Assembly (NCBI GenBank): GCA_013823055.1
Contig: PNLN01000123.1
Span: 1 to 33,262 of the forward strand
Direction of reading: 5' to 3'
DNA length: 33,262 nucleotides
Source: Cyanobacteria bacterium DS2.3.42
GTDB lineage: Bacteria > Cyanobacteriota > Vampirovibrionia > Obscuribacterales > Obscuribacteraceae
Shown: piece by piece, positions 2,324 through 8,241 of the stretch
How the letters are laid out: the number at the start of each line of letters is the position of its first letter
Position numbering within the stretch: the first letter of the stretch is position 1
Program-made: the position numbers and the translations under genes
Notes under the pieces: model-generated
Told to the model about the DNA's origin: nothing
Database searches by the model: none
Seen by the model: only the letters and a program-made list of their open reading frames with translations

Positions 2324-4117
2324 TTATCTGGTCAGAGTGACGAGAGAGCGTGCGATGTCCGAGAAAGCTCGGTTCAGTGCTGCGGCTTGTCCTGCACCAG
2401 GAGGAATTTGATAGAACGCTCCACCTGAGTTGGTTGCCATCGGACTGAGAACTGCTGTCATCGGAGCTACGAGACCGGGATTCTGTGCCAAACCAATCGT
2501 GTAGATTTTCACTCCATTGGCGGCGGCTACCGATGTCATTGAGACTCCATTCATGTCACCAGTTCCGGTATTGGCTGTGGGCAAGCCGTCGGTGAACATA
2601 ACGATCGCAGGTGTCGCACCAACTCTCATTCTGTCCATTCCACCGCCGATTTGTGCAGGTTTCAGCATGTTTTGCAGTGCTAGAGTGAGCGCACCATTTA
2701 TGTCCGTGCTGTTGTTGGCAGTCAGTTGAGGAACTACTGTTGACGGCAGAATCGGAGGTAATGGGAGGTATGAATTAATCGCGGTGAACTGACTTCCTGC
2801 TGCACCGGCTGTCTTGTTCAGTGGGACATAGGGAACCGGGACATTCACGTTGGTGGTTATGGGGATGTTTCCGGCAACCGGTGGGCTTGGGAAAGTGTGT
2901 GTTTGAGGATTGCCTATCGCACGAGCCGATGTAGTGTTGTTTTCATCTGACGCAAAGCCGATCAGGCAGAAGTGGGCGTTTGTTGAATTGTTGATGATTT
3001 GGAAGAAGTTTGCTGCGGCTGACTGGGCGTCAAAGAGGGGATGCCTGTGAGTCAGAGCCTGCTCCCAATAAGTCCTGTAATATCCCGACTGCGGGACAAT
3101 TCCCCATGATCCGTATGGGACGCTAGCTGCGTTTGCAATTGCAATCGACTCTAGATTGCCTCTGGAAGCTTCTACAAGACTACCGACAGTGGGGAAATTG
3201 AGACCGCCGTGTATCAGACCTCCGGGACCGGAGCCGTAAGTAAGACCTTCATCTAAATTGACCACGATGTCCGAGAACCGATTTCCGGTAGACGCAGTTG
3301 TGACAGGAGCTCTCTGACCTTGAGTCTGCCCACGTCGAGCAGCGGAGGTCGCATCGTAGAGGATCGAAGGTCCATCAAGCTCGAGATTCTGAGGGTAGCA
3401 TGCGTTAAGGGAGGTGCCGGTGAGACTGGTGGTACCGGATGCAGTGTACAGCGTGTCGTCTGCAACGACTCTGTAGATGGTGTTCCCTACTGCAGGAGAG
3501 TAACGGTCTACTATGGTCACAGGAGTTGAGTCGTCGATAGACCCTGAAAGGTCGAAGCAGAGAGCAACATCTAACATTGTCCCGCCGCCGTTGCCGATCG
3601 CAACGACTGCGCCCAAGGTGTTGTTGCCCAGTCCGATCCAGCTACCCACTAGAGGAGGGTATGCGTAAGCTCCGGAGACTCGGAAAATTTTCTGGTCTCC
3701 AGGGACGGCGGTCGGTACGCCAGTTTCCGGATCGACCCATGTGAAACTCATGTTAGCCGTATTGGCGACCGCCGGCATCGTCGGCACTGTGGTTCCTGCT
3801 GTCCAGGTGGTTTTGCCGGCCAATGACTTTTCCAAAATCGCGTTCTGCTCCATCATCCACTGCGCTGTCTGTATGGCTGCAGATTGTGCTACCGCTTGGT
3901 TCGTAGACTGTGCTGATGCAAGCCCTGCGGCGCCGCCGAGTGCGGCGATGTCTACGCAGTGCTGGAATTGCTGACAGCAAAGGTTGTAGCGAGCAAACTC
4001 AAAGGCTGTCATGCCCAAGAGAAGAATGAAAAACACAAGCAAGAACACAATCAAAACGATCATTGATTGTCCTTTGGGTTTTCGTCTAAACATTTTTTTC
4101 GACATGACTTTTTCCAT
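2324..4117 (-). CDS. TadG-like protein: pilin-type N-terminus plus VWA domain
   Basis: 597 residues. A basic N-terminus (KKMFRRKPKGQS) precedes a single hydrophobic helix at about 19-39, typical of TadE/TadF/TadG proteins of Tad/Flp pili. A von Willebrand A domain carries the metal-site motif DLSGS near residues 189-193 and a second motif, MFTDGLPT, in the last fifth. Between them lies a long Gly/Ala/Thr/Asn-rich extracellular-looking region, larger than in a minimal VWA. It probably sits in the membrane with the VWA domain outside, assisting pilus assembly or adhesion. It follows two TadE-like genes on the same strand. The start is uncertain: in-frame ATGs at 4117, 4105 and 4093 all lack a strong ribosome site. 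I saw no pilin, ATPase or secretin gene nearby. Confidence 0.75.
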   Translation of the reverse strand: MEKVMSKKMFRRKPKGQSMIVLIVFLLVFFILLLGMTAFEFARYNLCCQQFQHCVDIAALGGAAGLASAQSTNQAVAQSAAIQTAQWMMEQNAILEKSLAGKTTWTAGTTVPTMPAVANTANMSFTWVDPETGVPTAVPGDQKIFRVSGAYAYPPLVGSWIGLGNNTLGAVVAIGNGGGTMLDVALCFDLSGSIDDSTPVTIVDRYSPAVGNTIYRVVADDTLYTASGTTSLTGTSLNACYPQNLELDGPSILYDATSAARRGQTQGQRAPVTTASTGNRFSDIVVNLDEGLTYGSGPGGLIHGGLNFPTVGSLVEASRGNLESIAIANAASVPYGSWGIVPQSGYYRTYWEQALTHRHPLFDAQSAAANFFQIINNSTNAHFCLIGFASDENNTTSARAIGNPQTHTFPSPPVAGNIPITTNVNVPVPYVPLNKTAGAAGSQFTAINSYLPLPPILPSTVVPQLTANNSTDINGALTLALQNMLKPAQIGGGMDRMRVGATPAIVMFTDGLPTANTGTGDMNGVSMTSVAAANGVKIYTIGLAQNPGLVAPMTAVLSPMATNSGGAFYQIPPGAGQAAALNRAFSDIARSLVTLTR

Positions 4118-4164
4118 TTTGACCTGAGGGGTAAAACTGTATATCTCGGGTTAGTCCCACTTCT

Positions 4165-4677
4165 CTACGGAGGCGGTAAGTTGACGATAGGCATGGAGTA
4201 GCTTCGCTGAAAAACCAGAGCTCCGGAGCCCATGGATTGACCCATGAAGATTGGCATTGGCAAGTTGACATTCATACGACTCTGAACCCTCACAAAAGGG
4301 GTCTGTGGAATCGGCGGCAGTGGTCCTCCATTCGAAGCACCATAGTCTTGCCAAACAAATCCGCCGGGCACGAAAGTAGGATTGCCAATGTATGGTCTGC
4401 TGACTGAGTGAAGCTGAAGTTCTCTGGTAGCTGCATTTTGAGCCGCTGTCTTGTACGCTGCTGCCGTGCTGGTCGGGCTCGTCGCTTGTGCTGCTGCTCT
4501 ACATGCATCGCGGCAGGCCATGTCATTGAGCATGAATGCTTGCATCCATACGTAGCCATCGATACCCACAAACACGATAACTGCCATAGCGACAGACGCG
4601 ATGCCGACTTCTATGAAAGAACTACCGTTTTCATCTCTTGTTTTATCTGAATTTCGAACGTGTTTATTCAGCCGCAT
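4165..4677 (-). CDS. TadE-like minor pilin / membrane protein
   Basis: 170 residues from the ATG at 4677. AGGA lies six bases upstream, and this start avoids overlap with the preceding gene. The open frame extends back to 4836, but that part is the other gene's C-terminus in another frame. A hydrophilic leader ends in GSSFIEVGIAS, with the Glu typical of TadE proteins, followed by a membrane helix at about 22-42 and then an Ala-rich helix (ACRDACRAAAQA). The C-terminal part is Pro/Gly-rich and probably extracytoplasmic. It lies between two related genes and is likely co-expressed with them. Family membership rests on architecture, so TadF is also possible. Confidence 0.65.
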   Translation of the reverse strand: MRLNKHVRNSDKTRDENGSSFIEVGIASVAMAVIVFVGIDGYVWMQAFMLNDMACRDACRAAAQATSPTSTAAAYKTAAQNAATRELQLHSVSRPYIGNPTFVPGGFVWQDYGASNGGPLPPIPQTPFVRVQSRMNVNLPMPIFMGQSMGSGALVFQRSYSMPIVNLPPP

Positions 4678-4733
4678 AATCATTCCTGTAGACCTGTACG
4701 TGAATTTTAGTATTTGGTTTTGAGAGTAAGTCA

Positions 4734-5303
4734 CTAATTTTTCAGACCAGATGGCTTTTCGCACATGTTGGCACAAATGATTCTCACAGGGAATGGTCTG
4801 GTGAGACCAGGTACACCCGCAGCACCACCAAACCAACCTGCTCCGTTACCAGCTGCTTCAAACAGAGGTCGCACTTCTGCGTCTACTTGAACTGTGATGT
4901 TGTAGACATTAGTAGCTGTGTTAATCGGAACTGCCGCAGGTATAGGAGTTGCTGGACCGTATCTGGTGACGGCACCGGTTCCGATGTTTATTACATCGGC
5001 ATAGGTATTGGTAGCAATCAACCTAAGACCGTTTGCGCCCGTGCCGTTTGAAAACAGATTCAAGACCTGGGTCGCGCGGTTTCTTGCCGATAATTGGTAA
5101 GCACTCTGATCAGTGATGAATTGCGAACACTTAGATGCTTCACGTGCAGCTTGTCGAACAGCGTAGAACATAAGGGTGTAGCGAATGCCCAAACTGGCCA
5201 AACATGCTACGGGAAGTACCATGATCAAGAGCACCAAGAAAATAGCCGGACCCAATTCGGCTATCGAGTGACCCTTTTTCTTTCTGAACCTTTTTCTATA
5301 CAT
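4734..5303 (-). CDS. TadE-like minor pilin / membrane protein
   Basis: 189 residues. The basic leader MYRKRFRKKKGHS is followed by IAELGPAIF (Glu at the start of the hydrophobic segment, as in TadE) and a membrane helix to about residue 41. After that comes an amphipathic AVRQAAREAS stretch, common in TadE-like proteins, and a beta-rich C-terminal domain ending in a CANMC motif. It is the first gene of the minus-strand Tad set. No convincing promoter was found upstream. It probably works with the next two proteins in a surface filament or secretion apparatus whose other parts are elsewhere. Confidence 0.7.
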   Translation of the reverse strand: MYRKRFRKKKGHSIAELGPAIFLVLLIMVLPVACLASLGIRYTLMFYAVRQAAREASKCSQFITDQSAYQLSARNRATQVLNLFSNGTGANGLRLIATNTYADVINIGTGAVTRYGPATPIPAAVPINTATNVYNITVQVDAEVRPLFEAAGNGAGWFGGAAGVPGLTRPFPVRIICANMCEKPSGLKN

Positions 5304-6011
5304 GTATCATTCAGCTCCCGATATTCAAACCAAAATGCGCACCAATTAGCTACATACCCGTGAGATTGCCGTTTTGCTCGAATTAATAGTACAGAGGCGA
5401 GTCTTGAATCCTTTCAATGAAAGACGCTCGGTTTTGTTTAGGACCACATCACCAAACTGGGTGATTGAGGTCGTGACAATACCAACATAGCCGCGGCTTC
5501 ATGATCTCGTCAATAGCCCACAGGCTGGGAAATCTTCCATTCGCTGGAAAAGCTTGAAGCTGAAAACCATTGTCTGGAGAGCGATTTGGGAAACGGACTG
5601 GTTTTGGGATCAAAAACTACACGTAAACCACACGTATAACTAATCTCCCTGAGGCTCGAAACGCACAGCCTGTGGTGAATTCGGCTGCTGCCATTCGAGC
5701 GGAAATTGCACACGTTCACTTCATTTTCGGCCGCATCCGGGTCACTCGCCCAAAAGGGTGACTTTTCATATATAAGGATTAAAACTATTGCTAGAGATTT
5801 CCCGATGCCCTTGTGTTTAATAATGTGTACGAAACCAAAACTGAAGTTTTTGTATACATGCCAAGTGCCCGGCTTGCTGATCTGGAGCGCGAAAGTGGCA
5901 ACCTGTCGGCACTCCCGTGAATTAATCAGAGCGGGCAAAAGACCCGAAACGCTCAATATCGGCTCTATATCTGCTTGCCGATCATTATTGTGAAATAAAT
6001 TTTTAGAATCA
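5304..6011. other. Gene-free stretch with many hairpins, first part
   Basis: No frame here looks coding: the available ORFs have random composition and poor ribosome sites. Visible structures include GCTCGAA/TTCGAGC (5654-5660 with 5694-5700) enclosing CAGCC/GGCTG; GTCAC..CCC/GGGTGAC (5741-5762) followed by TTTT; a stem of about 10 bp at 5825-5857; AGTGCC/GGCACT (5864-5869 with 5908-5913); and ATCGGC/GCCGAT (5958-5963 with 5977-5982) followed by an AT-rich run. It may hold promoters for both flanking operons and perhaps a small RNA. None of these matches an RNA family that I know. Confidence 0.4.
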
Positions 6012-6270
6012 GCGGGGCTTCTATTAGTAAAATGTGTGGTTCGTCCGCTGGATCGGTCACTCTGTGACGCATTCGAATATAAGTCGGAGCTAATGAGCCC
6101 CGCGCTTTTGAGAATGCCGGTTGGAAAGGCAACCTACTTAAGGGTTTGCGCCTTTTGGATCGCCGCAGAGCCGTCTCGGCTGACTGTCGCTCTGGCTTGG
6201 CCGCCTTCGGTTTCAACCTTCTATAGGTTTGCCGAAAGGACTTCTTCCTGAGTCTCAGGTTCGAGTCCTT
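6012..6270 (+). promoter_or_regulatory. Structured leader of the S10 operon
   Basis: An 8-bp long-range helix, GCGGGGCT (6012-6019) with AGCCCCGC (6096-6103), encloses the hairpin GTCAC-TCT-GTGAC (6056-6068). Downstream are GGTTG/CAACC (6119-6134), AGCCG-TCT-CGGCT (6169-6181), a stem at 6204-6239 and a stem at 6236-6270. The last two share bases 6236-6239 and cannot both form completely. Ribosomal operons are often autoregulated through such leaders (L4 acting on the E. coli S10 leader), so that is the natural hypothesis here, but the sequence does not look like the E. coli leader. Confidence 0.45.
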
Positions 6271-6342
6271 AAAAAGCGTCCGAATTGAGAGAGATGCAAC
6301 TGAGAGAGCCCGAAATAATTGATCTAAGGGGTAATTGAGCTA

Positions 6343-6696
6343 ATGGCACGCGCCAACAAACAAAAGAATGACAATGCTTCCGGAACCTCCAAGGTTCAGA
6401 GAATTCGCATTCGCCTGAAGTCATACGACCACAGGCTGCTCGATAAATCGTCCGAGCAAATTGTCGAGACGGCCAAACGCACCGGTGCTGCCATCATTGG
6501 CCCCGTGCCCCTGCCGACCAGAAAGCGTATCTATTGTGTATTGCGCTCACCGCACGTCGACAAAAAATCACGCGAACATTTTGAGATCCGCATTCACAAG
6601 CGTCTCATCGATATAAACGATCCCACCCCTACCACAGCCGATGCTCTGATGAGACTCGACCTGCCGGCAGGGGTTGATATTGAAGTCAAACTTTAG
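6343..6696 (+). CDS. rpsJ: 30S ribosomal protein S10
   Basis: 117 residues against about 102-105 usually. The extra length is a polar N-terminal extension of about 15 residues before [18 protein letters not shown], the conserved S10 start. Also present are [19 protein letters not shown] and the [16 protein letters not shown] segment. S10 sits in the 30S head and, with NusB, supports antitermination. First gene of the 33-gene operon. AAGGGG precedes the ATG at a slightly long spacing, so a start inside the extension cannot be excluded, though no better ribosome site is visible. Confidence 0.96.
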
Positions 6697-7425: not shown

Positions 7426-8241
7426 ATGACATCCGCTCAAGTCATAGATCACAAAGGCAATAAAGTCCGCGAAATCGAATTGGACAAAGAGGTCTTTGGA
7501 TTGACGCCCAATAAGGGCCTGATGCACACGGCATTGCTCCGTCAGCTCGCCAACGCGCGCTCCGGATCTGCCAACACAAAGACTCGCTCTGAAGTACGCG
7601 GCGGCGGCAAAAAGCCCTGGCGTCAAAAAGGCACCGGTCGCGCACGCGCCGGCTCCATCCGCTCTCCATTGTGGGAAGGCGGTGGTGTCACCTTCGGTCC
7701 CAAGCCACGCGACTACTCTTCCAAATTGAACAAGAAGATGCGCGTGCTGGCAGTCAAGTCGGCTCTCTCAGCCAGAAGCAATAACCTCGTTATCGTCGAC
7801 AATTTCGACGCCATCAAAGACGGCAAGACCAAAGAGTTCGCTCAAGTTTTGAAGTCGGCGAAAATCGAAGAGAAGAAAGTTCTCCTCGTAATGGAATATT
7901 CAAACGACCAATCCGTCCTGGTCGAGCGCTCTGCTCGCAACATGGAAATGGTGAAAGTCGTTCATGTAAGCAACTTGAATGTCAAAGATCTGATCGAAGC
8001 TGAAGTTGTTCTGCTTTCCGAAAAGGGCTTGGACATTATCAACAAGCGCTACCAGAAGGATTACAAAGGCGAAGCTCAAACACCAGCCAAGCCGAAAGCC
8101 ACCAAAGAAAAAGCGGCAAAAGCCAAAAAGGCTCCTGTCGAAAAGAAAGCCAAAGCCGCAAAACCGGCTAAAGAAGCTAAGCCCAAAGTGAAGGACGAAG
8201 CTCCCAAGGCTGAAAAACCTAGCAAGAAATCTGAGTCCTAG
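7426..8241 (+). CDS. rplD: 50S ribosomal protein L4 with long basic C-terminal tail
   Basis: 271 residues against about 200-210 usual. The core is typical: the tunnel loop segment GGGKKPWRQKGTGRARAGS, then RSPLWEGGGVTFGPKPRDY. After about residue 205 comes a tail of some 60 residues made almost only of Lys, Ala, Pro and Glu. L4 lines the exit tunnel, and in proteobacteria it represses the S10 operon by binding the leader. The tail resembles those on L30, L15 and Ku in this window. GAGAGA precedes the ATG. Confidence 0.96.
   Translation: MTSAQVIDHKGNKVREIELDKEVFGLTPNKGLMHTALLRQLANARSGSANTKTRSEVRGGGKKPWRQKGTGRARAGSIRSPLWEGGGVTFGPKPRDYSSKLNKKMRVLAVKSALSARSNNLVIVDNFDAIKDGKTKEFAQVLKSAKIEEKKVLLVMEYSNDQSVLVERSARNMEMVKVVHVSNLNVKDLIEAEVVLLSEKGLDIINKRYQKDYKGEAQTPAKPKATKEKAAKAKKAPVEKKAKAAKPAKEAKPKVKDEAPKAEKPSKKSES

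Follow-up and report, generated by a model that had tools for sequence, protein, structure and literature searches.

A conserved probable promoter and leader core upstream of the S10 operon in Obscuribacterales

Introduction

What controls the S10 operon in a deep, uncultured branch beside the photosynthetic cyanobacteria? Known leaders of ribosomal-protein operons have a patchy distribution and are often not the same from one lineage to the next, and an earlier note – made from the letters of a single genome – proposed that the stretch before rpsJ (6012–6342) is an autoregulatory RNA with mutually exclusive hairpins of the attenuator type, responding to L4 or another ribosomal protein and unlike the leader of Escherichia coli. 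The comparison with related genomes described here retains one part of that proposal, a strongly constrained and probable S10 control region unlike that of E. coli, and gives up the attenuator. If the reading put forward below is true, it adds an S10-operon control element for this branch, while in a sister order rpsJ has a structured leader unrelated to it. The case also shows more generally that switch-like hairpins seen in one genome can be a local stretch, with the conserved signal lying nearby.

The locus and its operon

The window, as the whole stretch of 33,262 nucleotides analysed is called here, is a contig of a 4.2-Mb draft genome of Obscuribacterales type (Melainabacteria, Cyanobacteriota). 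It carries an S10 operon in the order S10–L3–L4–L23–L2, with rpsJ at its head:

6343–6696, plus strand: rpsJ (S10), first gene of the operon; PF00338, E 3.5e-40
7426–8241, plus strand: rplD (L4), third gene of the operon; PF00573, E 5.8e-67
6326–6331, plus strand: AAGGGG, ribosome-binding site of rpsJ, read from the sequence

Directly 5' of the rpsJ start codon, 17 of 20 bases are invariant within the genus, represented here and in all genus comparisons of the region by four genomes, the window's included. The longer open reading frames further 5' (2324–5303), in which a Pfam search found no family at cut-off, lie on the opposite strand, so that the S10 operon probably needs its own promoter. 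The neighbourhood of other loci argues in the same direction: tuf lies upstream of rpsJ at ten of them, and since a strong terminator often stands between the two genes (in at least five cases: L016, L005, L021, L029 and L131), rpsJ would need a promoter of its own. In the other orders sampled, rpsJ often directly follows tuf.

A probable promoter

Among 53 genomes of the order, rpsJ was found in 43 and its upstream region was extracted from 42; at the 43rd locus (G064), the element described below is also present by pattern search. Two features stand out at the upstream end of the comparison:

5991–6002, plus strand: A/T block TGAAATAAATTT, UP-element-like, directly 5' of the -35 position; invariant in the genus across all 12 columns
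6028–6033, plus strand: TAAAAT (consensus TANAAT), probable -10 box; TANAAT at 42 of 42 loci

The hexamer keeps the T1, A2 and T6 of a sigma-70-type -10 box at every locus, as TAGAAT (20 loci), TACAAT (15) or TAAAAT (7), and a G two bases 5' of it is common among the representatives. In the same family, the promoter of a 16S rRNA gene (L181) reads TTGACG...TAGAAT, with TAGAAT as its -10 box. Across 21 divergent representatives, the place expected for a TTGACA-like -35 box holds no conserved hexamer; the A/T block just upstream is conserved instead, its positions carrying high information in the same set, and its AAATTT ends 25 nt 5' of the -10 box in nearly all loci, save a few divergent ones.

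We infer from this sequence pattern that the A/T block, which sits where a proximal UP element would be expected, would together with TAAAAT give the S10 operon its own promoter. Transcription would then probably start near 6039–6041, and the first ~27 bases of the interval singled out in the earlier note (6012–6039) are probably promoter, not RNA.

The conserved leader core

Immediately downstream of the probable -10 box begins a conserved leader core:

6034–6094, plus strand: leader core, starting right behind the -10 box and ending with ATAAG-N6-YTAAT; 42 of 42 rpsJ loci extracted from the order
6079–6094, plus strand: near-invariant tail motif, ATAAG-N6-YTAAT in the order and ATAAGTCGGAGCTAAT here; ATAA and TAA unchanged in all 21 representatives
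6056–6068, plus strand: perfect hairpin GTCAC-TCT-GTGAC inside the core, weakly supported; kept in the four genus members

At all 42 loci, which cover both families of the order, TANAAT is followed 41–51 nt on by ATAAG or ATAAT, N6 and YTAA. The spacing from the -10 box to the tail is exactly 44 nt in 24 of them; length changes elsewhere run from -3 to +7 nt, and one-base indels separate loci within the core. Between core and start codon the distance varies far more widely, running from 20 to 332 nt across the order. Within the genus – with gaps scored as changes – 53 of 61 columns of the core are invariant (87%), against 39 of 106 (37%) just downstream and 2 of 91 in the stretch holding the proposed alternating hairpins; the core is conserved, and the flanking sequence on either side has diverged.

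The core is also specific to one operon. A genome-wide search of the 53 genomes with the commonest form of the pattern found roughly one copy in each genome, located at rpsJ, plus three chance-like matches elsewhere; being strict, it overlooks some loci, among them the window's own, where T replaces A after ATAAG. A repeat element can be discarded as well: searched against the genome, both halves of the leader gave nothing but short weak matches elsewhere. What is well supported is a promoter plus leader core found throughout the order and specific to the operon, consistently associated with the 5' region of a ribosomal-protein operon.

Folding and covariation of the core

The hairpin GTCAC-TCT-GTGAC, which the earlier note had placed inside a longer helix, is indeed there letter for letter, and its region received modest support from an arm-swap test on the 21 divergent representatives (158 of 20,000 shuffles as good). 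A helix joining the core's 5' end to its tail, suggested by eye in several loci, fared no better than chance: 7235 of 20,000 swaps were as good as the native arrangement, and it was rejected. The earlier note had named covariation in related genomes as its check and absence of covariation as evidence against its proposal; in the conserved core no pair reached significance (best pair E=3.2, in our own R-scape-like test with tree-based null alignments), and RNAalifold predicted zero pairs on 29 sequences aligned with MAFFT. Mean folding z was -0.92 for the core, -1.16 for its antisense, -0.47 for upstream controls and -0.38 for coding controls. As judged from these predictions, the core appears to be a conserved sequence whose folding is weak and just slightly above controls.

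Searches for known relatives gave little. Rfam returned no match at the gathering threshold and none relevant up to E 10, a result informative on an E. coli-type leader only insofar as that leader is modelled there. Mimicry of rRNA at the sequence level was set aside, as a profile of the core found no match in the 16S and 23S rRNA loci of relatives.

The sister order as a yardstick

In the sister order Gastranaerophilales, rpsJ is preceded by another promoter (GTTGACA) and by a leader in which a 9-bp helix encloses UCCGAAAUAU...AAUAGC. R1, a model of this leader built from 13 sequences, finds a match in 55 of 117 genomes. Across 52 distinct matches, in an alignment fitted to the structure, pairing in the helix reaches 92% and double-changed cells number 50, against 15.6 in shuffles; sliding the helix position destroys the support. 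In our own covariation test, the two best pairs both fall in the 9-bp helix (E 0.05 and 6.2), and the mean folding z is -2.33. Searched against the Obscuribacterales loci, R1 gave no significant match (best E 1.2).

The two leaders share their class, their gene, a promoter of their own and a leader core at the 5' end, but the Gastranaerophilales leader has a long helix with compensatory changes and folds strongly. It looks like an undescribed ribosomal-protein leader, better supported than that of the window. Since the same kinds of test detect this real leader, the negative outcome for the Obscuribacterales core becomes more informative, albeit with set sizes and alignments that differ between the two. 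The R1 matches are L193–L238, L032, L033, L035, L046–L048, L056, L069, L096 and L097; weak second matches, L239 and L240 (G134:C19 and G118:C7; E 8e-4 and 1.7e-3), occur in genomes where rpsJ already has a match.

What the core may do

With moderate confidence, we read the region as a promoter of the operon's own followed by an order- and operon-specific leader control element, most likely acting as RNA, that tunes S10-operon mRNA. The first 50–60 nt of the transcript would carry this element, ending in ATAAG-N6-YTAAT; it would be recognised early in transcription, either by one of the operon's own products or by a factor carried on RNA polymerase, and recognition would adjust the quantity of S10-operon mRNA made or kept. 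Ribosomal-protein feedback on the operon is plausible, and L4 is a candidate regulator solely by analogy with E. coli. With so variable a distance between core and start codon, a mechanism that simply masks the ribosome-binding site is disfavoured, and the different, structured rpsJ leader of the sister order indicates that S10-operon leaders are under selection in the class. A narrower version of this reading, which we hold only tentatively and think rather unlikely, is that the core is a largely unstructured RNA signal read by sequence, with ribosomal-protein feedback that needs no covarying fold and an S10-operon product or RNA-polymerase factor that reads it early.

The core might alternatively act as DNA, as an extended promoter in which conservation reflects the initially transcribed region, another promoter overlapping the first or a regulator that binds there, and have no role as RNA. 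This is a possibility to be reckoned with, if a somewhat doubtful one: the core keeps an almost fixed position relative to the -10 box, as the constant 44-nt spacing at over half of the loci illustrates, RNA structure is weak, significant covariation is absent and the tail is a loose palindrome. However, that palindrome is consistently asymmetric, and the length changes in the core are out of step with the helical repeat, a pattern easier to reconcile with RNA than with a factor bound to DNA. TATAAG in the tail was rejected as a second sigma-70 promoter: its last base is G at nearly all loci, where a -10 box calls for T.

It is improbable that the core merely sets mRNA stability or ribosome standby by protecting the 5' end, without feedback. 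Its place at the very 5' end and the variable distance to the start codon would suit such a role, but ~55 conserved nucleotides at one operon only are not what it would lead one to expect; beyond this, nothing specific speaks against it.

The proposed helix and switch

Two helical proposals of the earlier note concern letters outside the core. The letters of the 8-bp outer helix are as it gave them (GCGGGGCT at 6012–6019 pairing with AGCCCCGC at 6096–6103), but the helix itself does not hold up: an 8-bp perfect inverted repeat arises in 31% of shuffles of the region, the three sister species lack the GCGGGGC/GCCCCGC arms, and the arm at 6012–6019 precedes the likely -10 box and so, if the promoter reading holds and transcription starts where expected, is outside the RNA.

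The proposed switch was placed further downstream, where CCTT (6204–6207) and CCTT (6267–6270) were both to pair with AAGG (6236–6239); the letters are correct. Two-way pairing positions for 4-mers are no richer than in shuffles (11 versus a mean of 15.6), and the entire 331 nt show a mild folding excess (z -1.7, 6 of 100 shuffles). The CCTT/AAGG/CCTT stretch is present in two sister species (L003 and L004), and in all three species that have it the pairing of the upstream CCTT with AAGG has a modelled probability of 0.00. Forcing this alternative costs 9.0, 7.7 and 9.0 kcal/mol in the three and 5.8 kcal/mol in the full predicted leader. The two competing stems are therefore not of comparable stability – one pairing is favoured by 6–9 kcal/mol in three species – and the idea of mutually exclusive hairpins was rejected; a kinetic switch during transcription is conceivable in principle, but nothing speaks in favour of it. 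What the stretch forms is better described thus:

6207–6270, plus strand: two side-by-side hairpins (CGGTTTCAACC..GGTTTGCCG and AAGGACTT..GAGTCCTT), genus-specific; common fold in three species

Folding z for the pair is -4.3 in the window, far beyond chance, and -2.3 and -3.2 in the two sister species, and the alignment shows, by eye, one compensatory change per hairpin (A-U to G-C and U-A to C-G). The stretch is absent from a further species of the same genus (L002, S10 99% identical) and did not turn up among the other family members; rather than a switch, it is a stably folded stretch peculiar to the genus. Where the sisters have a shorter loop, the window's second hairpin (6242–6270) carries an extra inner hairpin, CCTGA-GTC-TCAGG, and GGTTCGAGTCC, a string resembling a tRNA T-arm.

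These results leave an L4-responsive attenuator with mutually exclusive hairpins very improbable, and the idea of an L4 attenuator is not supported. L4 is encoded within the operon, and in E. coli it controls the S10 operon through the leader, as it does in some gammaproteobacteria, though reportedly not in Pseudomonas (PMC10931766). Against this stand the vanishing probability of the alternative pairing, the absence of the stretch from a species of the same genus and, it appears, from the remainder of the order, and a terminator scan of 6012–6342 that found no intrinsic-terminator-like site on the sense strand, contrary to the attenuator type proposed.

A translated leader peptide scarcely merits belief: the window has a short frame from an ATG at 6032 (MCGSSAGSVTL-stop), but this ATG overlaps the -10 box, one-base indels separate the loci and, of the three frames anchored on the tail, two are interrupted by stops in every one of the 21 representatives and the third in 10 of them.

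Relation to known leaders and to rRNA loci

Like the L4-controlled S10 leader of E. coli, the Obscuribacterales region stands before rpsJ in an operon encoding L4, but no intrinsic attenuator was seen in it, and its core is much shorter and weakly folded. The S10 ribosomal leader of Firmicutes (PMC7247131) is also lineage-specific and lies before S10-operon genes; it is known as a conserved structure, whereas the core described here shows no significant covariation. The rpsJ motif RLC-47-1 of Peptostreptococcaceae (PMC11109978) is likewise a family-restricted candidate leader before the S10 gene and differs in lineage. A search of a limited set of literature returned no report on an rpsJ leader in Obscuribacterales.

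Two observations concern rRNA loci of the order. The leaders 5' of 16S rRNA genes (L178–L185) have a common block, GAACCCTGATAACTGAATAG...GGCGCCTGTCAA, which we take to resemble the cyanobacterial boxA-like antitermination site; boxA-like antitermination was rejected for the rpsJ core, in which the block GAACCCTGATAACTGAATAG is not seen and whose profile is, as stated, without a match in 16S and 23S loci. In six Obscuribacterales genomes (G006, G009, G012, G016, G034 and G065; L178–L184 and L186–L191), the genes for 16S and 23S rRNA are widely separated or sit on separate contigs, and in these genomes they appear to be unlinked.
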